From Streptomyces sp. P9-A2 (GTDB taxonomy: Bacteria; Actinomycetota; Actinomycetes; Streptomycetales; Streptomycetaceae): DNA of 64,000 nucleotides. Below, one piece after another: positions 1,069 through 53,208 of this stretch. Numbering within the stretch: position 1 is the first letter of the stretch; the number at the start of each line of letters is the position of its first letter. A program made the translations under genes and the position numbers. The notes beneath the pieces were generated by a model. That model saw only the letters and a list, made by a program, of their open reading frames with translations, was not told the origin of the DNA and searched no databases. The stretch covers positions 124,001 to 188,000 of the forward strand of contig NZ_JAZIFX010000001.1 in NCBI RefSeq assembly GCF_036634175.1. Reading direction: 5' to 3'.

Positions 1069-2119
1069 ACAGACGCCGAGCGCACTGAACCCCTCCAGCG
1101 GGTGGAGCCTCACGGCGCCACCCGCAGCGCCGCGCCTCCTCTGATCGCCCGGAATCCTGTTATCAGCCGCGCGCGCGAGAGCGATGGAGCAGATCCGATG
1201 AGACGGTGAAGCCGGCCGGCTGCGCGTGCTGGAGGACCGGCTGGCACGGAAACGCGCCGACTGGGCAGCCGGGCGGGTGCGCGTGGTGCGCGGCGGCAAG
1301 CGCCTGGCCCGGATGCGGCACCAGCTGCCCGCCGCGCAGTTGTCCGAGGGCGAGTGGCGTGGGCGCTGGGAGGCGGCCCGCTGGTTTTTGCGGGCGGACG
1401 GGGAGAGCGGCAAGCAATAGGGGAACGAGACGATCCGCATCGCACCAAACGGTGAGGTGAGCATCCGGCTGCCCGCTCCGCTCAAGGAGTTGGCGAATGC
1501 CCCGCCCGGCCGGTACGTGCTCACCGGCCGGGCGGCCTTTGCGCACCGGGGGCCGGAGTGGGCCGACCGGGTGGCGGCGAACCGGGCCATCGCCTACCGC
1601 ATCCACCACGACCCGGCCCGGGCGCGCTGGTATGTGACCGCGTCCTGGCAGACCCCCGTCACACACACGATCCCCCTGACAGCGGCGCTGGCCGACGGGG
1701 TGATCGGGGTCGACATGAACGCCGACCACTTCGCCGCCTGGCGCCTGGACACCCACGGCAACCCCACCGGCAGCCCGCGCCGCTTCTGCTTCGACCTGAC
1801 CGGCACCGCCGGCCACCGCGATGCCCAGGTCCGCCACGCCCTGACCCGGCTGCTGCACTGGGCCCGTACCTGTGGGGTGCGGGCGATCGCGGTCGAAGAC
1901 CTGGACTTCACCACCGAGAAGACCCGCGAGAAACACGGCCGCAACAAACGGTTCCGCCGACTGATCTCCGGCCTGCCCACCGGCCGGCTCCGCGCCCGCC
2001 TGACCTCGATGGCCGACGCCATGGGCATCACCGTCGTCGCCGTCGACCCGGCCTACACCTCGAAGTGGGGCGCCCAGCACTGGCAGAAACCCCTGACCAG
2101 CAGCACCCGCAGGACCACC

Positions 2120-2164
2120 CTCCCCCAAGCTCTCGACTGCGCTCAAGCAGGGGGCACCCCCATC
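2120..2164 (+). repeat. Short palindromic insertion in the decayed tnpB copy
   Basis: Forty-five bases present here replace two codons of the intact copy. The segment begins CTCCCCCAAGCTCTCGAC and contains CCCCC and GGGGG runs that can pair, with a further GGGGGCACCCCC at its end. The insertion keeps the reading frame. It resembles the short C-rich palindromes scattered in Streptomyces genomes; that resemblance is from memory and was not searched. Confidence 0.45.
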
Positions 2165-11819: not shown

Positions 11820-12239
11820 TCAGGCGCTTGCGGTCTTCTCGAGTGCGGCGAGGCCCTCGGTGTAGATGCCGTGGAAGAGGTCCTCGGCTTCGGCGTCGCT
11901 GACGCCCACGGGGGTGAACGTGCCGGACCATTCGACGCGCGAGGCGTCGCGGCTGCCGGGAACGGCGTGGACGCGCAGAGTGGAGCGGTAGCCGGTCACC
12001 GGGAAGGGCGCCTGCTCGATGGTGTAGGAGTAGCTGCGCGCATCGTGGTCGAAGGCATGGAGGCGCTCGATGATGACGCCGCCGTCCTGGTTGGTCAGGC
12101 GGCGTACACGGCCGCCTTCACCCAGTTCGCTCTCGGGGATGTAGGGGAGCCAGTCGGGCAGGGATCCGAAACCGCCGATGAGCTGCCAGACGCGGTCGGG
12201 GCCCTGCGGCAGGTCGAGGGATACGGTGGTGGTGGCCAT
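11820..12239 (-). CDS. SRPBCC family protein (START/polyketide cyclase-like)
   Basis: A 139-residue helix-grip protein: SLDLPQGPDRVWQLIGGFGS, LPDWLPYIPESEL, then GGVRRL-like strand and the C-terminal helix EAEDLFHGIYTEGLAALE. This is the common SRPBCC family, which binds hydrophobic ligands. Two starts are possible: ATG 12239 (MATTTV, chosen because homologues usually begin so) and ATG 12275, which overlaps the stop of the aldo/keto reductase gene as ATGA and would be translationally coupled. It is the second gene of that operon. Confidence 0.82.
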   Translation of the reverse strand: MATTTVSLDLPQGPDRVWQLIGGFGSLPDWLPYIPESELGEGGRVRRLTNQDGGVIIERLHAFDHDARSYSYTIEQAPFPVTGYRSTLRVHAVPGSRDASRVEWSGTFTPVGVSDAEAEDLFHGIYTEGLAALEKTASA

Positions 12240-12271: not shown

Positions 12272-13276
12272 TCAAGCGGTGGGAGCGTGGGCGGCGATGA
12301 GCTTCTCGTCGCGCAGGGCGTCCCAGAAGGCGACCGGGACGCTCTCGGTGAGGGCGGCGACGTCCTCGGCGATGCGGCTGGGCCGGGTGGCGCCGGGTAT
12401 GACGGCGGCCGTGGCGGGGTGGGCCAGTACGAACTGCAGCGCTGCGGCCTTGACGCTCACACCGTGCTCGGCGGCAAGCGTCTTGATCCGCTCGACCCTG
12501 GTGACGATTTCCGCCGGGGCCTGCTGGTACTCGAAGTGTCGGCCGCCGGCGAGGACGCCGGAGCTGTAGGGGCCTCCGACGACCATGTCGACGCCCTGCT
12601 CGGTAGCCGCGGGCAGCAGGCGCTGCAGGGACCGGTTGTGGTCGAGGAGGGTGTAGCGGCCGGCCAGGAGGAACGCGTCCGGCCGGGGCTCGTCCAGGTC
12701 GAGGGTGAGCTCGATCGGCTCCACCCGGTTGACGCCGAGGCCCCAGGCCTTGATGACGCCTTCCTCGCGGAGTCGCTGCAGCACGCGGAAAGCGCCGGTG
12801 CGCGCGGTCTCGTAGACGGCCGGCCAGCGGTCTCCGTGGAAGTCCTGGGCCACGTCGTGCACCCAGACGATGTCGAGGCGGTCCGTCTTCAGGCGCGTGA
12901 GGCTGTCCTCGATCGAGCGCAGGGTGGAGTCCGCCGTGTAGTCGTCGATCACCTTGTTCCGGCGGCCGTACTCGAAGAGGCCGCCCTTTTCGCCCAGGTC
13001 TCGGGTGGTGGGGTCCTCCGACTCGTCCAGGATGACGCGGCCCACCTTGGTACTGAGCACGAACTCGTCGCGCGGTCGGCCGGCGAGGACCTCGCCCAGG
13101 CGGATCTCGGACAGACCGGCGCCGTAGAACGGGGCGGTGTCGAAGTAGCGGATGCCCTGGTTCCAGGCGGCCTCGACGGTGGCCGCGGCCTCCTCGTCCG
13201 GGATGCTGCGGAACATGTTGCCCAGCGGTGCGGTACCGAAGCCGAGGGTGCCCGGCAGAAGGGACTTGATGCCCAT
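12272..13276 (-). CDS. Aldo/keto reductase
   Basis: A 334-residue TIM-barrel oxidoreductase. The catalytic tetrad is visible as FDTAPFYG (Asp, Tyr), VLSTKVGR (Lys) and DIVWVHDV (His). The NADP-binding end reads AAVIPGATRPSRIAEDV. It belongs to the D-threo-aldose dehydrogenase-like branch; substrate unknown. Start set at ATG 13276 behind AAGGA; MKRR at 13297 has no ribosome site. The gene is divergent from a LysR-type regulator with an inverted repeat between them, and forms an operon with the SRPBCC gene. Confidence 0.88.
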   Translation of the reverse strand: MGIKSLLPGTLGFGTAPLGNMFRSIPDEEAAATVEAAWNQGIRYFDTAPFYGAGLSEIRLGEVLAGRPRDEFVLSTKVGRVILDESEDPTTRDLGEKGGLFEYGRRNKVIDDYTADSTLRSIEDSLTRLKTDRLDIVWVHDVAQDFHGDRWPAVYETARTGAFRVLQRLREEGVIKAWGLGVNRVEPIELTLDLDEPRPDAFLLAGRYTLLDHNRSLQRLLPAATEQGVDMVVGGPYSSGVLAGGRHFEYQQAPAEIVTRVERIKTLAAEHGVSVKAAALQFVLAHPATAAVIPGATRPSRIAEDVAALTESVPVAFWDALRDEKLIAAHAPTA

Positions 13277-18377: not shown

Positions 18378-19178
18378 TTCCGCCCGCCGGCCCCGCCCTC
18401 CGCACTCCGTCGGTTCTACGGGCCGTCGGTCAGAACTCCCGAACGGCCGTGGTGCCCGCGAAGATGATCGGCACGTTCCGGTCGCGGGGCGGCGTTTGAT
18501 GTGGTCGGCGTCGGCCGGCTGCTGCTCGATGATCTGTACAGCGTGCTTCGGGGAAGAGTTCGCGTCGAACGCCGACCATGGAGATCGCGTACGTACTCGA
18601 TGGTCTCGAGGATGACGGTGGTGCCGTGGTGGACGACGCCAAAAGCGTCTTCGCCTACCGAGCCGGCCGCAGTGCTCGCCTCGGACAGGGGCGCAGGGGC
18701 CTCGCTGCTCGGGCGGCACGCTCAAGGCTCGTGAAAGCTCCCTCCGGGACGACCGGAGTGGGCGTGCCCACGGCCACGTCCGCCGTCGTCGGCCCTGTGC
18801 CACTCGGGGAAGCGTCCGTTTCTGCCGTTCCGCGGCCGATGCGGTCGGCATCGACGCGACACGGGCCGAACGGTCGGGCTTCGCAGCATCACGTTTGAGT
18901 GATGGTGGGGAGACGGTGTCCGTGCGGGCGAAGGATTCGACCGGCACTCTGCCGCCGCGTCGGCCCAGGGTACGCCGGAGCAGGAGGAACCTCATCATGG
19001 AAAGCGATTCCGCTTCGCGAGGCCGCCCTCGGAGCTCCTGAGGCCGGCGATCCGTTCGTCCCCGTGTTTTCGCGAGCCTTCGAGATCGTCCCGGCACCGT
19101 GCGGCTCCGCCGTCGCGGGGGAACCAGGTGGACCGCGCCGCCATCCTCACCTACGAGTCCATGGGAGGGTTCGAGCAA
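18378..19178. other. 800-base stretch before the polyketide synthase
   Basis: No gene is recognisable. Frames on both strands are GC-rich and motif-free. The minus strand near 18580-18640 reads VVHHGTTVILETIEYVRDL in one frame, coding-like but isolated. Promoter elements of the PKS gene are expected here but none is clear. Confidence 0.4.
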
Positions 19179-22100
19179 GTGAGTGCAGACGCGGACATCA
19201 TCAGGCCACTGCCGGAGTCGCTCCGGGAGCATGCCCGGCGCCTCGGGGAGAAAGTCGCCTTCCAGGACCGCCGTACGCGGCGGACCTACCGGGACCTGGA
19301 GCGAAGGACCGGGCGGCTGGCCGGCCACTTGGCGCGGCTCGGCCTGGCGCGGGGCGAGCGGGTGGCCCTCCTGCTCGGCAACCGCGTCGAGGCGGTCGAG
19401 AGCTCACTCGCCGTCACCCGGGCGAGCGGAGTGGGCGTACCGCTGGATCCCGGGAGCTCGGGGGCGGAGTTGGCCCGTCTGCTGGACGACTGCGGTGCGC
19501 ACGTGCTCATCACCGATGAGGCCCGACTGGCGCATCATCAGGAACTCCTGTCCCGCCCCGGGCTGATCGTGGTGACGGCCGAGGGCGGCGAGGAGGACGG
19601 GGATATTCCGTCGTCCGAGGGCTCCGGCGCGTTGACGGACGGGTCCGTGGCCGCGGGCGGTGCTCTGCGCTACGAGGAGCTGGCGGGTACGGAGCCCGGG
19701 ATTCCCGCCCGGGACGATCTCGGGCTGGACGAGGTGGCGTGGCTGCTCTACACCTCCGGGTCCTCCGGCACCCCCAAGGGGGTCCTGTCCACCCAGCGCA
19801 ACCGCCTCTCGCCGGTCGCGACGGGCCTCGTCGGCATTCTTGGCATGTCCGAAGAGGACCGGGTGCTGTGGCCGTTGCCCCTCCACCACGCCATGAGCCA
19901 GGTGGTCTGCGTCCTCGGGGTGACCGCGACCGGGGCCGGGGCCACTCTCGCGCCCCGGTTCTCGGTGGCGGAGGTACTCGGTGAGCTGCGCCGTACGGAC
20001 GCCCCTTACACCCTTCTCGGCGGGGTGCCGACGACGTATTCGGCCCTGCTCGACGCGGTCCGGCGCGAGGAGGGCGACAAAGCCGACGGCGGCCTCGGAA
20101 CACCCGCGCTGCGGGGCTGTGTCAGCGCCGGAGCTTCGGCGGGGCCCGCATTCCGGAAGTCCTTCGAGGCGATCTGCCGCACCCCCTATCTGGAGCACTA
20201 CGGCAGCACCGAGGCGGGCCCGGTCACCATGGCGGCACCGGGTGACACGTCGAAGGCCGGGTCGTGCGGCCGGGCGCTGCCCGGCACCCGGGTCCGGGTC
20301 GGCGGTGGCACGGACGGACGGGACTCCGGCGAGGGCGAGTTGTGGGTGAGCGGACCCGGCGTCATGGCCGGCTACCACGGCAGGCCGGAGGCCACCGCCG
20401 AGGTGCTGCGCGAGGGCTGGTTCCGCACCGGCGACCTGGCCAGGATCGAGGCCTCCGGGGACATCGTGATCACCGGCCGGGTGAGTGAGCTGATCATCCG
20501 GGGCGGGGTGAACATCCATCCGTCGGAGGTGGAGGCGGTGCTGCGGAGGCTGCCCGGGGTGGCGGACGCCGCCGTGGCCGGACGCCCGCATCCCGTCTTC
20601 GGTGAGGTGCCGGTCGGCTATCTGGTCCCCGAGCCGGGCGGCGGTGTGCCGGCCAGGGGGTCGGTCCTCGCCGCCTGTCGTGCGGAACTGTCCGCTTTCA
20701 AGGTGCCCGTCGAGCTGTACGAGGTGGAACGCATCCCCCGTACCGCCTCCGGGAAGGTCCTGCGGCATGCCCTCGCCGACGGGCCCACGCGAACGCTCGG
20801 CACGCCGGCGGCCGGGGGGCCGGCGGACGACCTGCTGGCCCTGGTGCGGAGTGAGGCGGCGGCCGTTCTCGGCCGTACGGCGGAGGCGGTGGAGCCCACG
20901 ACGGCGCTCCGGGACCTGGGCATGGACTCGCTGACGGCGACCGTGCTGCGGGAGCGGTTGTCGGCGGCGACCGGCCTTCCGCTCTCCGAGGCCGTCGCCT
21001 TCGACTTCCCCACGGCCGCCTCGCTCGCCGCCCACCTCCGCTCGCGAAGCGCCGCGAGTGCCGCGAGCGCCGCCGCACCGTCCGGCGCCGGGATCACGCA
21101 CCGTGGAGCGGCCCGGCCGGACGACGACCCCGTGGTGATCGTGGGCATGGCCTGCCGCTATCCCGGAGGCGTGACCTCCCCCGAGGAGTTGTGGCGGCTG
21201 GTGGCCGACGGGAGGGACGCCATCGGCCCGTTCCCCACGGACCGGGGCTGGGACACGGAGGCACTGTACGACCCGGATCCGGGCCGGTCCGGCCGGACGT
21301 ATGTGCGTGAGGGCGGCTTCCTCACCGGCGTGGACCGCTTCGACCCCGGCTTCTTCGGCATCTCCCCCCGCGAGGCCCAGGCCATGGACCCGCAGCACCG
21401 GCTGCTGCTCGAAGTGGCGTGGGAGACCTTCGAACGCGCCGGCCTTGTCCCCCGCACCCTGCGCGGCTCGCCGACCGGGGTGTACGTCGGGCTGATGTAC
21501 AGCGACTACGCCGGCCGCCTCACGGAGGTGCCCGAGCATGTCGAGGGCTACCTCGGCCTCGGCAGCGCCGGAAGTGTCGCCTCGGGCCGTATCTCCTACA
21601 CCTTCGGCCTGGAGGGCCCGGCCATCACGGTGGACACGGCGTGTTCCTCGTCCTTGGTGGCCCTGCACCTGGCGGCCCAGGCGCTGCGCCGGGGCGAGTG
21701 TTCCTTCGCGCTGGCCGGCGGGGCCACGGTGATGTCGGGGCCCGCGTCGTTCGTGGAGTTCAGCCGCCAGCGGGCGCTGGCCCCGGACGGCCGCTGCAAG
21801 GCGTTCGGCGCGTCCGCCGACGGCACGGGGTGGGCCGAGGGCGCCGGGATGCTGTTGCTGAGCCGGTTGTCCGAGGCGCGCCGCGCCGGGCTTCCGGTGC
21901 TGGCCGTGGTGCGCGGCTCGGCGGTGAACCAGGACGGGGCGAGCAACGGACTGACGGCGCCGCACGGGCCGGCACAGCAGCGGGTGATCCGGCAGGCCCT
22001 CGCGGACGCGGAACTGACCCCGGGGGACGTCGACGCGGTGGAGGCGCACGGCACCGGCACCCGGCTGGGCGATGTCATCGAGGCGGAGGCGTTTCTGGCG

Positions 22101-25100
22101 ACGTACGGGCGAGCGACACGGGAGCGTCCGCTCCGGCTGGGCTCGGTGAAGTCGAACATCGGTCACACCCAGGCCGCCGCCGGGGTGGCGGGCGTGATCA
22201 AGACGGTGCAGGCGATGGCGCACGGCGTGTTGCCGCGTACGCTGCACGCCGACGAGCCGAGTCGCCGGGTCGACTGGTCGTCGGGGCGGATGACGCTGTT
22301 GAACCGGTCGGTGGAGTGGCCGGGAACGGACCGCCCGCGCCGGGCGGGGGTGTCCTCCTTCGGTATCAGCGGCACCAACGCCCATGTGGTGCTCGAGGAG
22401 GCCCCGGCGGACCGGAACACTCCGCCGCCGGTTTCCGCGGCGGACGACGGGGCCGGGAGGGACCGTGTCGACGGCGGGGCGATGCCGGCGTCCGTGGCTG
22501 TCGCGGTGTCTGCGAGGAGCGGGCCGGGGCTGCGGGCCCAGGCGCGACGGCTGTACGAACAGGTGGCCGCCGACCCGGACACGGCCTTGGTGGACATCGG
22601 GTACTCCCTCGCCACCACCCGTGAGGCCTTCGAGCACCGGGCCGTGGTGGTGGCCCGGGACCGTGCGGAACTGCTCGCCTCCCTGCGGGTGGTGGCGGAG
22701 GGCGCGAGCCGGCCCCGGGTGCGGACGGGCACGTCCCGCCGCCGGGGACCGCTGGCCCTTCTCTTCACCGGCCAGGGAAGCCAACGCGTGGGTATGGGAC
22801 GTGAGTTGTACGAGTCCCGGGAACTACATCCGAGCTTCGCCCGGTCGTTCGACGAGTGCTGTTCCCTGCTCGACCCCTTGCTGCCGGTGCCCCTGCTGGA
22901 CGTCGTGTTCGCCGGCCCCGGCACGGAGACGGGCGCGCTCCTGCACACGACCCGGTTCGCGCAGCCGGCGCTCTTCGCCCTGGAGACGGCCCTGTTCCGG
23001 CTGCTCGAGGCCTGGGGTGTGCGCCCGGACCTGGTGGCCGGGCACTCGGTGGGCGAGGTGGCCGCGGCGCATGCCGCCGGGGTGCTGTCCCTCGCGGACG
23101 CCTGCGTCCTGGTGGCGGCCCGGGGCCGGTTGATGGACGCGCTGTCTCCGGGCGGTGCGATGGCCGCCGTGGCCGCCGGAGCGGACGAGGTGGCCGCCCG
23201 CCTTGCCGAGACAAAGGGTGCGGCGGAGATCGCCGCCGTCAACGGTCCCGCTTCGGTGGTCGTCTCCGGGGACGAGGCCGCGGTGCGGGAGACCGCCGCG
23301 TACTTCCGGGAGCGGGGCCGGTCCACGACGCCACTGCGGGTCAGCCACGCCTTCCACTCCGCGCGGATGGAACCCATGCTGGCCGACTTCGCCGAGGTCG
23401 TGCGGCGCCTCTCCTTCTCCACTCCGCGCATTCCTCTGGTCAGCGCCGTATCGGGCCGGGCGGCCACCGACGAGGAGCTGAGCTCGCCGGAGTTCTGGGT
23501 GGACCACGTCCGTCGGCCGGTCCGCTTCGCCGATTCGGTGGCGCACCTCCGCGGCCGGGGCGCGGCGCACTACGTCGAGCTGGGTCCGCGCGGAGTGCTC
23601 ACCGGCCTGGTCGAAGGCTGCCTCTCCGTGCCGGGCCCGGCACCGGCGGGCCCGGACATGGGCACAGGCACAGGCACAGGCACGGACATGGGCACGGGCA
23701 CGGGCACGGGCGGAGCGTCCGGCGGCGAGCGGACTCCGGCACCTCTGGTCCTGCCGACCCTGCGCGGGGCGCGGCCGGAGGCGGACGCCCTGCTCGACAC
23801 CGTGGCCGCGTTGCACACCCATGGCGTGCCCGTGGACTGGCGGGCCGTCTTCGCCGGGCGCGGCGGTCGGCGCGTCGCCCTGCCCACGTACGCCTTCCAG
23901 CGCCGCCGGTACTGGCTCGACGCCACCCCGCGGCATCGGTCCACGTCTCCGTCGGACACCCCGGCCCATCCTTTCCTCTCGTCCCGCACCATGATGGCCG
24001 ACGACGACGGGCTGTTGCTGAGCGGGCTGCTCTCGGTGCGCCATCAGCCCTGGCTGGCCGACCACGTGGTGGCGGGGGCGGTGCTGCTGCCGGCGGCCGC
24101 CTTCGTGGAGATGGCCCTGCACGCCGGTGAGTCGGCCGGCGCGCCCGTCCTGGACGAACTCGCCCTGACCACAGCGCTGTCACTGCCTGCGGACGGCGCC
24201 GTCGAGCTGCAGATGAAGGTGTCCGGGCCCGATGACACGGGACGGCGGACCCTGCTCTTCCACTCCCGGCCGCACTCGCCGGCGGGCGACCGGCCCTGGC
24301 AACGGCACGCCTCCGGGACGCTCGTGCCGGAGCAGCGGTCGACGGACCGCAAAGCGGCTGCCACCGTGGCCGGCACCACGCCCTGGCCGCCGCCGGACGC
24401 GGTGCCGCTGCGCACCGACGCCCCGGACGCCGACCCGTACGAGCGGCTGGCCGGGCACGGGCTGAGCTACGGCCCCGCCTTCCGGGGCCTGCGCGGCGCC
24501 TGGCGGCTCGGGGACGAGCTGTACGCAGAGGTCGCGCTGCCGGAGACCGCCGGAGTTGCGCTCCCGGACGCGGGAGGCCCGGGATTCGTCCTGCATCCCG
24601 CGCTGCTGGACGCGGCGCTGCACGCCCTGGCACTCGACGGATGCGCGGCGGACCGTGCCGGGGAGGGCCGTGCCGGGACGGGGGATGGCGGGGTGTCCCT
24701 GCCGTTCGCCTTCAGCGGGGTGCGCCTGCACACGGCCGCCGCGCGGCGGTTGCGGGTGAGGATCGCCCTCGGGCCGGACGGGCGGGCCGGGGTGGAGCTG
24801 ACCGACACGGCGGGCACGCCGGTGGTTTCGGTACGTTCGTTGACGCTCCGACCCCTTCCGCGCACCGGAGGGGGAACAGCGGATCCGGTCACCGGGGCTC
24901 TCCACCGGATGGACTGGGTGCCGCTGCCGGAGCCGCCCGTGCCCGCGGTGGTACCTCCGTGGGGCGTCCTGGGCGCGGCGGGCACACGACTGGTGGATGT
25001 GCTCGCACCCCGGGGCTCCGGCGTTCCGGTGTACGCCGGCCCGGCGGCGGGCGGCACGGCGCCGGCCGTCCTCGTCGCACCGTGCCCGCCGCCGCCGGCC

Positions 25101-27755
25101 ACGACCGGCGATGCGCGGGACCCGGCGGCAAAGCCGCGGTGGGCGGCGGGCTGGGCACTGGAGTTGATACGGGAGTGGCTCGCCGCACCGCACCCGGCGA
25201 ACTCCCGTCTCGTCCTCGTCACCTCCGGCGCCGTCGCCCCGGAGGACGGTGGTCCGGTCGACGGCGGTCCGGTCTGCGGCGGTCCGATCGACGGCGGCAC
25301 CGGTTCCGGGGATTCCGGCGCATCCGACGGGTGTGCTTCCGTACCGGCCCACGCACCGGTATGGGGGCTGGTCCGCTCGGCCCTGCGGGAGAATCCGGGC
25401 CGTTTCGCCCTGGTCGACATGGACGATCACCCCGACTCCTGGCGCCTCCTCCCCGCCCTGCTGGCCGCCGCGGCGCCGGAGACGGCCGTACGACGGGGCA
25501 CGGCGTACGTACCGAAGCCGGTACGGGTGGCCGAGGCGACGGGGGAACGGCGGCCCCGGCGGCGGCTCGATCCGGAGGGCACCGTCCTGGTCACCGGCGG
25601 CACCGGTTCCCTGGGCGTACTGGTGGCACGGCACCTGGTCACCGCCCACGGCGTCCGGCATCTGCTGCTCGCCGGCCGGCGTGGACCGGACGCTTCGGGG
25701 GTGGACGAACTCGTCGCGGAACTGGGCAGGTCAGGCGCCGAGGTCACCGTCCGGGCGTGTGACGTCGCGGACCGGACGGCGCTCGCCGCCCTGCTCGACG
25801 CGGTGCCGGCGGCCCATCCGCTGACCGGCGTGGTGCACGCCGCGGGGGTGCTGGACGACGGCATCGTCCCGGCGCTCACGGCCGACCGGCTGGAGCGGGT
25901 GCTGCGGCCCAAGGCGGGCGCCGCCCTCGCCCTGCACGAGCTGACCCGGGGACGCGACCTGGCGATGTTCGCGCTGTTCTCCTCGGTGGCGGGTACCTTC
26001 GGCTCCGCCGGTCAGGCCAACTACGCGGCCGCAAATTGCGTGTTGGACGCTCTGGCACGACACCGGAGGCGTCTCGGTCTGTCCGGTACGTCGATCGTCT
26101 GGGGTCCCTGGCGGCAGAACGAGGGCATGATGGCGCACCTCACCGACACGGACCTGCGGCGGATGGCCCGCTCAGGATTCGACCCATTGGAAAAGGAGGA
26201 GGGCCTGGCCCTCTTCGACGCCGCCGTGGCCGGTGACGACCCGGTGGTGGTGGCGGCCCGCTTCGGCCCGGCCGCCCTGAGCCACGGCGTTCCGGCGGCG
26301 GGCCGGTCCCGGGTGCCCGGTTCCGCCACGACGGGCGCGGGCGGCGGGGGCGGGGCTCCGCTCGTCCGACGGCTGGCGGCCGCTTCACCCGGTGAGCGGG
26401 GTGAGCTGCTGCTCACGGAGGTGCGGACTCTGGCGGCCTCGGTACTGGGCCACCCGGAGGGGGCGGGTGCGATCGACGGGGACGACCTGCTGGCCGACCT
26501 GGGGCTCGACTCCCTGGCCGCGGTCGATCTGGGCAACCTGCTCGTGGCGTCGACAGGGCTGGCTCTGCCGTCCACGCTGCTGTTCGACTTCCCGACTCCG
26601 CGTGCGGTCGCCGCCGAGCTGGCGGAACGGTACGCGCGGGAGGCGGCTCCTCCCGACGCACCTGGCGCATCCGACGCCCCCGAATCGCCGGATGCCGTCG
26701 GCCGTCCGGGCAGCCCCGGCCGACCGGCGGACGACGGTGTTCCCGGCGGTCCGGAGACGGCCGGTCGGCCGGAAGCCCCGGTGCGTGCCGGGAGCTCACC
26801 GGACGCCGGGGGTGCTTCGGATTCCCTGGAGACGCTCTTCCGCTCCGCCTGCGCCCGGGGGCAGACCTGGGACGGCATGGCTCTGCTCACGATCGCCGCG
26901 CGCCTTCGCCCGGTCTTCGACAGCGCCGGAGCGCCCGGTGCGGCACTCGAACCCGTCACGCTCGCACGGGGCGGTGCGGGACCCCGGCTGGTCTGCTTCC
27001 CTGCCCTCAGCGCGCTCTCCGGACCCCAGGAGTACGCCCGCTTCGGCGTCGGGCTGCGGGGTCTGCGACCGGTCCTGGCGGTACGGCATCCGGGGTTCGG
27101 CCCCGGGGAGGCGCTGCCGGCCACACTGGACGCCCTCGTCACCGCTCAGACCGCCACCGTCCGCGCGGCCGCGGGTGACGCACCGCTGGTCCTGGTGGGC
27201 CGGTCGGCCGGTGGCTGGGTGGCTCATGCCGTGGCCGAGCGGCTGGAAGCCGAAGGCTTCGCCCCGCTCGCCGTCGTCCTGGTGGACACCTATCCAAGCA
27301 GTGACGACCAGGACCAGGCGCTCTCCGCCATGACGACGGACATGCTGCACCGGGCTGCAGAGTTCCTCCCGGCCGGCCCTGACCGGCTCACCGCCATGGC
27401 CGGATACTTCGAACTCTTCGCCGGCCGGCAGCCCTCGCGGCTCGTCTCCCCCACCCTCTTCGTACGGGCCCGGGATCCACTGCCCGGTGCGGAGCCCGCT
27501 CCGGTCTGGGGGCTGCCGCACACCGAAGTCACCGTGCCCGGGGACCATTTCACCGTATTGGAGGAGCACGCCCGTACCACCGCGCTCGCGGTCCACCACT
27601 GGCTGGCCGGTCCGGACCGACGACGCCCCGACGCCTGGTACCGGTCGGAGTCCATGGCCGGTGACGGTCTCCTCGACGGCGGGAGCGATGCGGACCAGGG
27701 GCTCCCGGACGACGCCGACGACGGAAGCGGGCAGCACCACGCCGGTCGCCCTTGA
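19179..27755 (+). CDS. Single-extension type I PKS: AMP ligase-ACP-KS-AT-DH-KR-ACP-TE
   Basis: A 2858-residue assembly line, numbered from GTG 19179 (GGAGGG nine bases before; ATG 19161 and GTG 19128 are alternatives). Acyl-AMP ligase ~10-540: [22 protein letters not shown], Lys526 in TASGK. ACP1: Ser584 in GMDSL. KS ~650-1075: Cys822 (DTACSSS), His957, His996. AT ~1190-1490: Ser1290 (GHSVG) and HAFHS, the malonyl-CoA signature. DH ~1600-1890: His1629 ([10 protein letters not shown]), Asp1811. [13 protein letters not shown] motif (B-type), Tyr2282. ACP2: Ser2445. TE ~2590-2820: Ser2676 (GRSAGG), His2790. All catalytic residues are present. Inferred chemistry: an acid is activated and loaded, extended once with malonyl-CoA, reduced and dehydrated, then released as a 2-enoic (or 3-hydroxy) product. 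Starter unknown. No tailoring, transport or regulatory gene lies adjacent. Confidence 0.95.
23658..23714 (+). repeat. GGCACA/GGCACG hexamer repeat in the AT-DH linker
   Basis: Nine or so imperfect GGCACR hexamers, interrupted by ACATGG, encode a Gly-Thr rich linker ([18 protein letters not shown]) between AT and DH. The array keeps the frame in multiples of two codons, so copy number can change without breaking the protein. Confidence 0.75.
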
Positions 27756-47041: not shown

Positions 47042-48568
<1,527 letters not shown>

Positions 48569-49492
48569 TCAGCCCTTGACGGCACCGGCCATGATGCCGC
48601 TGACGATCTGACGGCCGAAGACGATGAACATCAGCAGCAGCGGCAGCGTGCCGAGCAGCGCGCCCGCCATGATCAGCGACTGGTCGCGGACATAGCCCGC
48701 GCTGAGCTGGGTGAGGGCGACGGGAACCGTCGGGTTGGTCATGTCGAGCACCACGAACGGCCAGAAGAAGTCGTTCCACGCGTGCACGAACGTGATCATG
48801 AACAGGACCGCCATCGCGGGCCGTGCGACGGGCAGCACGATGCTCCAGAAGATCCGCAGCGAGTGCGCCCCGTCCACGCGTCCGGCCTCGACGAGTTCGT
48901 CCGGCAGTGCCTCCGACAGGTACTGCCGCATGAAGAAGACGCCGACCGCGCTCACCAGGGTGGGGAAGATGACGGCGGGCAGCTGCTGCGACCAGCCCAG
49001 CTCGGCCATCATCATGAACAGCGGCACGACGGCGAGCTGCGGCGGCACCAGCATGGTGCCGATCACCAGCATGAGCAGGGCGTTGCGTCCCTTGAACCGC
49101 AGCTTGGCGAAGGCGAATCCGGCCAGGGTCGCGAACAGCACCGTGGACAGGGCGATCACCCCGGCCACGATGAGGCTGTTCATCATGGCCTTGCCCATCG
49201 CCGCCTCGTCCCAGGCCCGGGCGAGGTTGCTGAACAGGTTCGGGCCGGGCAGGAACGGCGGCGGCGTCTGGCTGACCCGGGTGTTGTCGGTGGAGGCGGC
49301 CACCATCGTCCAGTACAGCGGGAAGATCGACAGCAGCGCCATGACGGCGAGCAGGACGTAGGCGAGCGGGCCCGCGTGGTGCTGGCGGCCGGCGCGCTGG
49401 CGCAGCAGCCGGCGGCCACCGCGGCCGGTCGGCTTCTCGGCGGAGGTCCGGGCCGCGGTGTCCGTCCGGGCCGGGAGACTTTGAGTGGTCAT
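48569..49492 (-). CDS. Sugar ABC transporter permease (CebG-like)
   Basis: A 307-residue integral membrane protein with six segments, starting LAYVLLAVMALLSIFPLYWT. The ABC-binding EAA loop is ELVEAGRVDGAHSLRIFWSI followed by VLP. It belongs to the MalG/CebG branch of carbohydrate uptake permeases. The gene lies 12 bases after the first permease gene. The cognate ATPase is not in the operon; in Streptomyces the shared MsiK ATPase energises such systems. Confidence 0.92.
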   Translation of the reverse strand: MTTQSLPARTDTAARTSAEKPTGRGGRRLLRQRAGRQHHAGPLAYVLLAVMALLSIFPLYWTMVAASTDNTRVSQTPPPFLPGPNLFSNLARAWDEAAMGKAMMNSLIVAGVIALSTVLFATLAGFAFAKLRFKGRNALLMLVIGTMLVPPQLAVVPLFMMMAELGWSQQLPAVIFPTLVSAVGVFFMRQYLSEALPDELVEAGRVDGAHSLRIFWSIVLPVARPAMAVLFMITFVHAWNDFFWPFVVLDMTNPTVPVALTQLSAGYVRDQSLIMAGALLGTLPLLLMFIVFGRQIVSGIMAGAVKG

Positions 49493-49504
49493 GGCGACTC
49501 CAGG

Positions 49505-50500
49505 TCAGGACGTGCGGGAGCGCAGGCGCTTGATCAGGCGCTGCACGGCGAAGGCGAGGACGAGCAGCAGGAACATCGCCCAGGCGACGGTCGCCGAGCG
49601 GCCCATCTGGTAGTTCTTCCAGCCCTCCTCGTACAGCAGGAGTCCCAGCGTCTGGTACTGGTTGTCCGCGCCGCCGGTGATGCCGTTGGGTCCCTGGCCG
49701 AAGATCAGCGGTTCGCCGAACAGCTGGGTGGCGCCGATCGTGGAGAGCACGATGGTGAAGACGATGGTGGAGCGGATCCCGGGGATGGTGACGTGGGTGA
49801 ACTGCTGCCATCGGGAGGCGCCGTCGAGGGAGGCCGCCTCGTACCGGTCGGCGGGGATGGCCTGCATGGCGGCCAGGTAGAGCAGCGCGTTGTAGCCGGT
49901 CCAGCGCCAGATGACGATGGTGGAGATCGCCGCCTGGGCGGGCCACTTGTCCGCCTCCCAGTTCACCGGGTCGATGCCGACCGAGCCGAGCGCCCAGTTG
50001 ATCATGCCGAAGTCGCGTTCGAAGATCATGGTGAACACGAGGGCGGCGGCGGCGACCGAGGTGGCGTAGGGCACCAGTGACGCGACGCGGAAGAACAGCG
50101 AGGCGCGCATCCGGTAGTTGAGCAGGTGCGCCATGCCGAGCGCCATCATCAGCTGCGGCACCGTGGAGATGACACCGATGGTGATGGTGTTCCGCAGTGC
50201 GTTCCAGAACCGTGAGTCGTTCCAGAGGTCGACGTAGTTGTCGAAGGCCACCCACTCCATGACGTCGAGAGTGGCCAGTTCCACGTCGTGCAGGGAGATC
50301 CACGAGGTGTAGACGAGGGGGTAGAAGCTGAACGCGGCGAAGACGACGAAGAACGGCGCGATGAAGGCGTACGGGGCGCCCTTGATGTCGAGCCGGTGCA
50401 GCAGCCTGCCGCGCCGCCGGACGGTGCCCTCGCCGCCCGTCTTCCGCGGCGGGCCTGGCGGCTCCTCGCCGGCCAGGGCCTTGGTGGTGGAGGTGGCCAC
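49505..50500 (-). CDS. Sugar ABC transporter permease (CebF-like)
   Basis: A 331-residue permease with six segments: AFIAPFFVVFAAFSFYPLVY, TITIGVISTVPQLMMALGMA, and the EAA loop YEAASLDGASRWQQFTHVTI with PG. MalF/CebF branch. GTG 50500 was chosen (AAGGAAG five bases before); the longer frame to 50635 overlaps the intergenic hairpin and is unlikely. Second gene of the operon; it forms the channel with the CebG-like permease. Confidence 0.92.
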   Translation of the reverse strand: MATSTTKALAGEEPPGPPRKTGGEGTVRRRGRLLHRLDIKGAPYAFIAPFFVVFAAFSFYPLVYTSWISLHDVELATLDVMEWVAFDNYVDLWNDSRFWNALRNTITIGVISTVPQLMMALGMAHLLNYRMRASLFFRVASLVPYATSVAAAALVFTMIFERDFGMINWALGSVGIDPVNWEADKWPAQAAISTIVIWRWTGYNALLYLAAMQAIPADRYEAASLDGASRWQQFTHVTIPGIRSTIVFTIVLSTIGATQLFGEPLIFGQGPNGITGGADNQYQTLGLLLYEEGWKNYQMGRSATVAWAMFLLLVLAFAVQRLIKRLRSRTS

Positions 50501-50531
50501 CGGACTTCCTTCCTGAGAGCGAATGTGTGAG

Positions 50532-50564
50532 CCGGGCCCGCCGGCAGGACGCCGGCGGGCCCGG
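50532..50564 (-). terminator. Intergenic hairpin between binding protein and permease genes
   Basis: Arms CCGGGCCCGCCGGC (50532-50545) and GCCGGCGGGCCCGG (50551-50564), perfect 14 pairs, loop AGGAC. It lies 19 bases after the binding protein stop. Such hairpins reduce read-through or protect the upstream mRNA, giving more binding protein than permease. Confidence 0.6.
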
Positions 50565-50582
50565 ACCGCCGGGGGCAGTAGG

Positions 50583-51893
50583 TCAGCCGACGGCCTTCTC
50601 GATGCGCTCCGCGGTGGTCTTCCACGCCTCGTCACGCGGGGTGCCCTGCTGCTCGATCAGAACCAGGCCCTGGGAGAAGGTGTCCTTGATCGTGCCGTCC
50701 TTACGGCCGAGGACCTGCTTGTCCGGGATCTCCTGGGCGGCGGCCCCGAAGATCTGGCCGATCGGGGCGTCGTTGAAGTACTCCGACTTGGCGTTCTTCA
50801 CCTGGTCGCTCTCCAGCGCCTCTCCCGAGGACGGGATGTTGCCGATCTCCTTGAAGATGTGGGTCTGCTGCTCCGGTGCGGTCAGCCAGGCGACGAGCTT
50901 CTTGGCCTCCTCCTTCACCGGGCTCTGCTCGACCACGCCGAGGAAGGACCCGCCCCAGTTGGCACCCTTGGGGGCCTTGGCGACGTCCCACTTGCCCTTG
51001 TTCGCCTCACCGGCCTTCTCGCTGATGTGGCTGAGCATCCACGCGGGGCACACGGCGGTGGCGAACGTGCCGTTGGCCAGGCCCGGGTCCCAGCCCGGCT
51101 GGAACTGGCGGAGCTTGGCCGTCAGGCCGTCGTCCGCGGCGTCGGCGGCCAGGTTCCAGGCCTCCTTGACGACCGGGTTCTTGGCGTAGATCAGCTCGCC
51201 CGCTTCGTCGTAGTACTGCTCGGGGTAGCCGTAGACCATGGCGTTGAACAGACCGCTGGCCGCGTCCATGTAGGACACCTTGTCGCCCTTGAAGCCCTTC
51301 TTGAAGGTGCGGCCGACCTCGACGTACTTGTCCCAGTCGCCTTCCCAGAGCTTGGCGACCTCCTCGCGGTCGGTGGGCAGACCGGCCTGCTCGAAGTAGT
51401 CCTTGCGGTAACAGACGGCCATCGGGCCGATGTCGGTGCCCAGACCCAGCACCTTGCCGTCCCCGGTGCTGATCTGGGACTCCTTCCACGGCAGGAAGTG
51501 GTCGGTGCCGGTTACGTCGGAGAAGTCCGCGAACTTGTCCGCCTGGGTCTCGGTAATCTCCTTGGCCCGGCCGATCTCGATGCCCTGGATGTCCTTCAGG
51601 CCCTTGCCGGCGGCGAGCCTGGTCTGCAGCGCGGTGTAGTAGGTCTGCTCGTCGCCGGCGATCTCTTCCTTGATCTCGACGTTCGGGTTCTCCTTCTCGT
51701 ACTGCTCGAGAAGCCCTGTCTCCTTGATGCCCATCACCCCGTACATGCCCATGGTGATGACTACCTTGCCGTCCTTTTTGCCACCACCCGTGGCCGAGTC
51801 GTCACTGCTGCTGCAGCCGACGACGAGCGTCATCGCGCCGGCGACCGCGACCGCGGCCGCCGCCCTCGTACGCATCGAACCGGGACTGCCCAT
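50583..51893 (-). CDS. Sugar-binding lipoprotein of ABC transporter (CebE-like)
   Basis: A 436-residue extracellular solute-binding protein family 1 member. Lipobox LVVGC with Cys27, then the two-lobe fold: VVITMGMYGVMGIKETGLLE, YYTALQTRLAAGKGLKDIQG, VLGLGTDIGPMAVCYRKDYF and WMLSHISEKAGEA. CebE-type proteins bind cellobiose and cellotriose; specificity here is by operon analogy. ATG 51893 with AGGAGGAGATCC is clear. First gene of the operon, downstream of a paired LacI-type operator. Confidence 0.92.
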   Translation of the reverse strand: MGSPGSMRTRAAAAVAVAGAMTLVVGCSSSDDSATGGGKKDGKVVITMGMYGVMGIKETGLLEQYEKENPNVEIKEEIAGDEQTYYTALQTRLAAGKGLKDIQGIEIGRAKEITETQADKFADFSDVTGTDHFLPWKESQISTGDGKVLGLGTDIGPMAVCYRKDYFEQAGLPTDREEVAKLWEGDWDKYVEVGRTFKKGFKGDKVSYMDAASGLFNAMVYGYPEQYYDEAGELIYAKNPVVKEAWNLAADAADDGLTAKLRQFQPGWDPGLANGTFATAVCPAWMLSHISEKAGEANKGKWDVAKAPKGANWGGSFLGVVEQSPVKEEAKKLVAWLTAPEQQTHIFKEIGNIPSSGEALESDQVKNAKSEYFNDAPIGQIFGAAAQEIPDKQVLGRKDGTIKDTFSQGLVLIEQQGTPRDEAWKTTAERIEKAVG

Positions 51894-51970
51894 GGATCTC
51901 CTCCTAGCGACGGCGCTGACGCACCGGAGTGACGATTGCTGCGATGACCACAGCGGCTCTGGCAATGGGG

Positions 51971-52006
51971 TGGGAACGTGCCCATTTTGGGGTGGGCACG
52001 TTCCCA
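51971..52006. promoter_or_regulatory. Paired LacI-type operator upstream of the binding protein gene
   Basis: TGGGAACGTGCCCA (51971-51984) and TGGGCACGTTCCCA (51993-52006), exact reverse complements, 22 bases apart centre to centre. Each half is itself a near-palindrome and matches the CebR box TGGGAGCGCTCCCA of Streptomyces in eleven of fourteen bases. The LacI regulator gene is divergent just beyond. Confidence 0.75.
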
Positions 52007-52194
52007 TCGATGAACCGAAGACTCCTTGCAGCACAGCCGGTCTGTCAATGACTTGAACACAACTCGTAGTCCGGGCAACGAGTTCGGCACCGGGCTGCCG
52101 GGCCCCGGCACACTCGCTTCGAGCCGCCGTCTGCAAGAATTGCCGCTGGTCACCTCCGCGGCCGGTGTGGCCGCGGCCGCCGAGAGGGGAGCAC

Positions 52195-53208
52195 ATGGCC
52201 GGGAATCGCCGTCCCACGATCAAAACCGTCGCCGCCCGTGCCGGCGTGGGCCGGACCACGGTGTCCCGCGTCGTCAACGGCTCGGATCTGGTCAGTGCCG
52301 ACGCGCGGTCCAGGGTCCTGGCAGCGATCAAGGAACTGAACTACGTTCCCAACTCGGTCGCCCGCGGCCTGGTCACCAACCGGACCAATGCCGTGGCACT
52401 GGTGATCCCGGAATCGGAGAGCCGACTCGGTTCGGAACCGTTCTTCGCCGCGCTGATCCGGGGCGTCAGCGGCGCCCTCGCCGAGAGCCGTACCCAGCTG
52501 CAGCTCATGCTGGTCCGCGACCAGGCCGAGCGGGACCAGCTGACCGAATCGGTGGCGGCGCGCCGCGTGGACGGTGTCCTCCTGGTCTCGGTCCACGCCC
52601 ACGACCGGCTGCCGGGCATGCTGGAGGAGATGGGGCTGCCCACCGTGCTGGCCGGCCGCCGCGACGCGGGCGAGCGGCTGAGCTACGTCGACTCCGACAA
52701 CGCGGGAGGCGCCGCCGAAGCGGTCCGGCACCTGCTGGGCGGAGGCAGGACCAGGATCGCCACGATCACCGGGCCCCTGGACATGGACGTCGGCCGCAGC
52801 CGGCTCGCCGGCTGGCGTGACGCCCACCGGGAGGCAGGAGTGCCCGCAAGCGAATTCCTGGCCGAGACGGGTGACTTCACCGAGGAGGGCGGCACCCGCG
52901 CGATGCGTTCGCTTCTTGAACGTGCCCCGGACCTGGACGCCGTGTTCGCCGCCTCCGACCTGATGGCGGTCGGCGCGCTGGCCGAACTGCGCCGCCAGAA
53001 GCGGCGGGTGCCGGGTGATGTCGCCGTCGTGGGGTTCGAGGACTCCGTCCTCGCCCGCCACACGAACCCGCCCCTGACGACGGTGCGTCAGCCGGTGGAG
53101 GAGCTGGGCCGCACGATGGCCCGTATCCTCACCGACATCACCCAGCACGGCGCGCCCCGCCAGCAGTTGACGCTGCCGACGGAACTGGTGGTGCGCGAGT
53201 CGACCTGA
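52195..53208 (+). CDS. LacI-family regulator (CebR-like)
   Basis: A 337-residue repressor: helix-turn-helix TIKTVAARAGVGRTTVSRVV and hinge YVPNSVARGLVTNRTNAVAL, then a periplasmic-binding-like domain (VLAGRRDAGERLSYVDSDNA, AVFAASDLMAVGALAELRR, VAVVGFEDSVLARHTNPPLT). It lies divergent from the beta-glucoside operon with the paired operator between, as cebR does. The likely inducer is a short cello-oligosaccharide. ATG 52195 follows GAGAGGGGAGCAC. Confidence 0.92.
   Translation: MAGNRRPTIKTVAARAGVGRTTVSRVVNGSDLVSADARSRVLAAIKELNYVPNSVARGLVTNRTNAVALVIPESESRLGSEPFFAALIRGVSGALAESRTQLQLMLVRDQAERDQLTESVAARRVDGVLLVSVHAHDRLPGMLEEMGLPTVLAGRRDAGERLSYVDSDNAGGAAEAVRHLLGGGRTRIATITGPLDMDVGRSRLAGWRDAHREAGVPASEFLAETGDFTEEGGTRAMRSLLERAPDLDAVFAASDLMAVGALAELRRQKRRVPGDVAVVGFEDSVLARHTNPPLTTVRQPVEELGRTMARILTDITQHGAPRQQLTLPTELVVREST

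Follow-up and report, generated by a model that had tools for sequence, protein, structure and literature searches.

The 64,000-nucleotide stretch of DNA analyzed here (the window) comes from Streptomyces sp. P9-A2, where it spans positions 124,001 to 188,000 of the large contig (NZ_JAZIFX010000001.1) of an 8.39-Mb, two-contig genome and begins 124 kb from the contig end. It contains one intact open reading frame (ORF; 19128..27755, + strand), 2875 aa long when counted from the first in-frame GTG, for a stand-alone polyketide synthase (PKS) with its own loading and release domains. A second GTG at 19179 (2858 aa) fits better as the start than the one at 19128, because in alignment it coincides with where a near relative (locus L141) is called to begin, and GGGAGGG stands immediately 5' of it. 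The order of domains found by Pfam is AMP-forming ligase (AL), acyl carrier protein (ACP), ketosynthase (KS), malonyl-type acyltransferase (AT), dehydratase (DH), ketoreductase (KR, with its structural half), a second PP-binding stretch (ACP2) and thioesterase (TE); coordinates are collected in Table 1. KS, AT, and ACP lie on a single chain with intact active sites, as in cis-AT type I PKS modules, and the protein scores 1812 bits against NF045894, whose cut-off is 1740 bits. An earlier sequence-only reading had described a free-standing enzyme of eight domains ending in its own release domain, all with their catalytic residues, and this description holds: the single ORF ends in a TE, and both the HAFHS motif in the AT, which we take to mark malonyl specificity, and the LDD motif in the KR, presumably indicating a B-type ketoreductase, are present as described.

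Table 1. Features of the PKS gene in the window; residues are counted from the GTG at 19128.
Feature	Position	Strand	Pfam limits (aa)	Active-site residues and remarks	Basis
Whole gene, stand-alone AL-ACP-KS-AT-DH-KR-ACP-TE PKS	19179..27755	+		GTG start; first in-frame GTG at 19128	
AMP-forming ligase (adenylation) domain	19221..20756	+	AMP-binding 32-417; AMP-binding_C 467-543	A10 Lys, K543	Pfam, tree, pocket residues
First ACP (loading)	20844..21038	+	573-637	S601, in 115/115	Pfam, family alignment
Ketosynthase	21126..22250	+	667-1041	C839, H974, H1013	Pfam, tree, family alignment
Acyltransferase	22761..23615	+	1212-1496	GHSVGE, S1307; HAFHS	Pfam, family alignment
Dehydratase	23967..24869	+	1614-1914	H1646, D1828	Pfam, family alignment
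Structural half of ketoreductase, SpnB-type Rossmann	25347..25514	+	2074-2129		Pfam
Catalytic half of ketoreductase	25578..26114	+	2151-2329	LDD; Y2299	Pfam, family alignment
Second ACP (extension)	26409..26627 (limits approximate)	+		S2462, in 115/115	Pfam PP-binding, family alignment
Type I thioesterase	26985..27602	+	2620-2825	S2693, D2720, H2807	Pfam, family alignment; FluC and DEBS TEs

The enzyme has many close relatives. In a protein search from which the best 120 of 1694 matches were taken, 99 of the 120 are proteins of 2650-2960 aa with the same core domains and 66-86% identity to the window protein (itself excluded), their named hosts being nearly all Streptomyces, with one Embleya. 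These 99 were aligned with 21 proteins from related loci (the window included), leaving 115 distinct sequences after removal of duplicates; the alignment omits L013, L146, and L148 (identical to sequences used or to each other: L146 and L148 hold the same PKS as the Streptomyces contigs L011 and L013), L019 (a larger PKS), and L142, L154, L155, L157, L017, and L159 (whose gene calls are short, broken, or absent). All 115, proteins of 2.65-2.96 kaa, keep the A10 lysine of the ligase, both ACP serines, the KS Cys-His-His, the AT serine, the DH histidine and aspartate, the KR serine and tyrosine, and the serine, aspartate, and histidine of the TE, which suggests that every domain is active. The DH glycine is retained in 109 of 115, and there are single exceptions at the histidine of the first AT motif and a few other positions. 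Ratios of nonsynonymous to synonymous substitution (dN/dS) against three near relatives are 0.35-0.42 for the whole protein and 0.11-0.79 by region, below 1 in every domain; values are smallest for the KS or one of the ACPs and largest for the structural half of the KR or for the DH, with the AT tying for the maximum in one pair. Judged by these alignments, the window enzyme is a member of a genuine family (group 1 below). Counting its own genome, a ligase of at least 65% identity occurs in 19 of 392 genomes of the genus and in 6 of 197 genomes sampled from the order, all six of the same genus. At three of the 19 (G130:C235, G119:C23, G327:C24) the frame is short or broken, a sign of either pseudogenes or assembly faults.

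What might such an enzyme make? The reading we favor, to which we give about even weight, is by analogy: the protein would correspond, in free-standing form, to the loading module and module 1 of rifamycin synthetase, extended by a DH and a TE, and would make an aryl (or related) 2-enoic acid in one round. The ligase would adenylate a free carboxylic acid with ATP and pass it from acyl-AMP to ACP1; the likeliest starter would be an aryl or arylpropenoic acid already present in the cell or soil. The KS would condense it once with malonyl on ACP2, the KR, if B-type as it appears, would reduce the beta-keto group, the DH would dehydrate the product to a trans-2-enoyl chain, and the TE would release a free 2-enoic acid two carbons longer than the starter: benzoate would give a cinnamate-type product, and cinnamate a 5-aryl-penta-2,4-dienoate-type one. 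We infer all three of the aryl starter, the single round, and hydrolytic release. The TE is nearest to those of FluC and DEBS among solved relatives, and hydrolysis would be the simplest outcome for a chain that is extended once and carries no hydroxyl. The lactone also proposed in the sequence-only reading is unlikely in general, since it would require a suitable hydroxyl on the starter.

The rifamycin loading module and module 1 convert benzoate to a reduced diketide in vitro (PMC13254586), an AMP-ligase and carrier loading an aryl acid for one extension with ketoreduction, as predicted here. The window ligase is 51% identical to that of L019, which groups with the RifA-named protein P0109. 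There are also differences: module 1 was fed methylmalonyl-CoA in vitro (PMC13254586), and P0109 has three KSs and no TE domain listed, whereas the window enzyme has a malonyl-type AT, a DH, a TE, and other residues at the A4 and A5 adenylation motifs. The closest short ligase-loaded synthase found is the venemycin synthase VemG/VemH of S. venezuelae, which likewise extends with malonyl and ends in a TE. As described in PMC5132015 and PMC6941969, however, it consists of two proteins with an A-KR-ACP loading layout and performs two non-reducing extensions to a pyrone, inside a complete cluster that also produces the 3,5-dihydroxybenzoate and contains halogenases; the window PKS is one protein with intact KR and DH. 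Iterative PKS-nonribosomal peptide synthetases of the polycyclic tetramate macrolactam (PTM; ikarugamycin-type) class also carry KS, AT, DH, KR, carriers, and TE in one protein (Pfam, L166), but lack an N-terminal loading ligase, have condensation and adenylation domains downstream, and have very distant KSs. A search of the open literature for the domain order (subscription papers lie mostly outside it) found no paper with this order and none evidently on this enzyme, which is uncharacterized as far as that search reached; the earlier statement that no characterized product exists for the exact order therefore stands for the order itself, although the in vitro rifamycin reaction is nearly the same chemistry.

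One possibility, which we consider real but rather doubtful, is that the same enzyme is iterative: the KS would reload the enoyl chain several times, and the TE would free either a carboxylic acid with an aryl polyene chain or a longer polyunsaturated acid. The domain content is compatible with this, since KR and DH without an enoylreductase (ER) would yield a conjugated polyene on iteration. Wang et al. (PNAS, 2020) reportedly found 7 of 11 tested single-module PKSs to be iterative. Two published accounts also speak against a single round: one reports that iterative single-module type I PKSs are commoner among Streptomyces than had first been predicted (PMC8622039), and the other calls single-module PKSs generally iterative (PMC10308959). 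The KS phylogeny points the other way. Family KSs form one clade (100/100) amid assembly-line KSs, while the five PTM-type KSs used as outgroup form a separate 100/100 clade on a long branch, far from the window KS; this weighs only weakly against iteration, these five being the sole iterative references. (The PTM loci were found beside an FA_hydroxylase-family gene, one of them being Pfam-checked; six entered the comparison, and L164, which lacked a KS match, was dropped.) The best solved relatives of the KS are 7s6b, an entry named polyketide synthase, and DEBS modules. The tree fits an assembly-line origin, that is, a single-use module by descent.

The ligase bears on the nature of the starter. 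It is nearest to PKS loading domains, rifamycin-named ones included, in a tree that held only such rows; once the stand-alone families are set aside, long PKS frames hold many of the strongest ligase matches across the genus (~47-56% identity), and the RifA-named or rifamycin-PKS-named proteins P0109 and P0113 are among the best 120 protein matches. A domain search and phylogenies of ligase and KS had been proposed as checks in the sequence-only reading: when run, the search confirmed the domains, and the KS fell among those of assembly lines. Twenty-five ligase positions are specific to group 1; 16 of them fall at 226-368, including eight within the A4 and A5 motifs. These eight residues (H253, M256, Q258, H357, A363, P365, V366, and M368) occur in at least 95% of 21 group-1 rows and at most 7% of 30 comparison rows, Q258 being present in 105 of the 115 family proteins, and the family therefore probably uses one kind of acid. 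The C-terminal part of the ligase matches PF13193 in Pfam, as noted in a comparison with fatty acyl-AMP ligases. Identification of the acid by structure search was given up: among the top matches of the ligase model (26-row alignment, mean predicted local distance difference test score 80.8) were benzoate, feruloyl, and anthranilate ligases, almost tied with others, and with many acid ligases at nearly equal Z no acid could be named.

A second stand-alone family offers a further indication. Its members (L121, L122, L124-L140) are single ORFs of 2655-2851 aa with the same domain order, and the three checked with Pfam (among them L122 and L124) have the same domains; 30 rows had ligase-ACP coverage and frames of 2.6-3.0 kaa, of which 19 were fetched and, with two less complete matches, make up 21 loci. 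It differs from group 1 in a ligase about 50% identical to that of the window (47-51%, nine members aligned), a TETCG-type A5 motif and, mostly, GLTS in ACP1. Six of the 21 loci (L122, L125, L127, L129, L131, L132) have a CndH-like halogenase next to the PKS, missing there in the other 15; it overlaps the PKS by 4 bases in five of the six, as in L125 (4250-5752, - strand), for which alone the halogenase family is shown. CndH is a phenol-type halogenase. By analogy such a partner would support phenolic starters in the second family, and a two-gene pathway to halogenated phenolic enoic acids is possible there. First trees suggested two independent origins of the stand-alone layout, an idea set aside when approximately unbiased (AU) tests did not reject a single clade (KS, p 0.49, 14 rows vs. 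28; ligase, p 0.107, 14 vs. 9); two second-family rows, L123 and L160, fall elsewhere in the trees and were excluded.

Could the starter instead be a non-aryl acid? A medium- or short-chain aliphatic or amino-substituted acid would lead to a 2-enoic or 3-hydroxy acid of simple structure, which might act as a signal. In its favor, the group-1 ligases have A4-A5 pocket residues of their own that are not shared with rifamycin-type domains, and the near matches by sequence and by structure include FadD13 and MatB. Set against this are the PKS loading domains, rifamycin-named ones included, as the closest relatives outside the stand-alone families, and the halogenase beside some members of a second family of the same layout; on balance a non-aryl starter seems unlikely.

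The surroundings of the gene suggest self-sufficiency. Pfam-matched genes within ~8 kb encode an SRPBCC protein, an aldo/keto reductase, a LysR regulator, a PEP-mutase-type enzyme, a GCS2 ligase, a GNAT protein, a flotillin, a Sir2 protein, and a glyoxalase-like protein, and there are several further ORFs without a Pfam match. The SRPBCC gene (Polyketide_cyc2, a broad family; 11820-12239) adjoins that for the aldo/keto reductase (12272-13276), both on the - strand and ~6-7 kb upstream of the PKS. When the 19 genes called within 10 kb were compared with the flanks of 24 other PKS loci, many of which include just 5-6 kb, a relative was found for the aldo/keto reductase alone, and at a single locus, L153. 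Either gene may have a role, yet neither is conserved near relatives apart from that one reductase. More broadly, four genes per side were compared at 25 group-1 loci, using a simple custom gene caller (the PKS is called short at two of them, L154 and L157): 9 of 300 locus pairs have a neighbor family in common, a co-directional downstream gene within 150 bases of the PKS occurs at none of the 25, and no conserved partner gene was found among them. Two annotated relatives lie on large linear plasmids, in S. atratus and Streptomyces sp. KN37, with differing surroundings. The gene thus seems, as far as its context can tell, to travel and work as a unit, and it is probably a one-gene pathway. The earlier claim that no accessory genes surround it needs qualifying: nothing nearby is conserved as a partner, but the SRPBCC protein and the reductase do lie close.

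The same genome contains another ligase-loaded PKS near 7.71 Mb (L158, G000:C1:7708323-7728322), with two KR-type matches, one ER, and then a long ORF on the same strand; it is probably an assembly line. Its presence could suggest that the window protein originally opened a larger assembly line and has been displaced from the later modules, which would lie elsewhere in the genome. This is very improbable: with a ligase at the N terminus and a TE at the C terminus, there is no evident slot for an upstream or downstream partner, the 25 related loci (two on plasmids) have no conserved one, and the 7.71-Mb locus has a loading module of its own.

Other features of the region can be described briefly. 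The window gene has no TTA codons, which are present in four of nine relatives checked, and a comparison of six upstream regions revealed no clear common element outside the start region. The sole Rfam match at gathering thresholds, ASpks (22080-22151, - strand; 53.6 bits vs. a cut-off of 52), lies inside the KS codons and was set aside as an RNA candidate: it most likely reflects coding homology with other KS genes. A sugar-uptake block at 47042-53208 (family 1 glycosidase, two ABC permeases, solute-binding protein, LacI-type regulator) is ordinary.

The anatomy of the enzyme is sound, and the scope of the finding grows from one gene to a family; its product is what we infer. Polyketide pathways usually need a gene cluster, while here a single protein appears to cover every stage from loading through extension, reduction, and dehydration to release, and relatives of it turn up in Streptomyces genomes without a conserved partner. 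If the acid and product were found, the enzyme would offer a ready one-pot catalyst for adding two carbons to free acids, and it would allow a clean test of whether reducing modules that stand alone are used once or repeatedly. More tentatively, these genes may be one-gene natural-product pathways of Streptomyces chromosomes and giant linear plasmids, in which a single PKS would turn one acid common in the environment (a hydroxycinnamate or benzoate from plants, for instance) into one conserved aryl-enoic product across many species, possibly as a signal or as a compound directed at plants or competitors.
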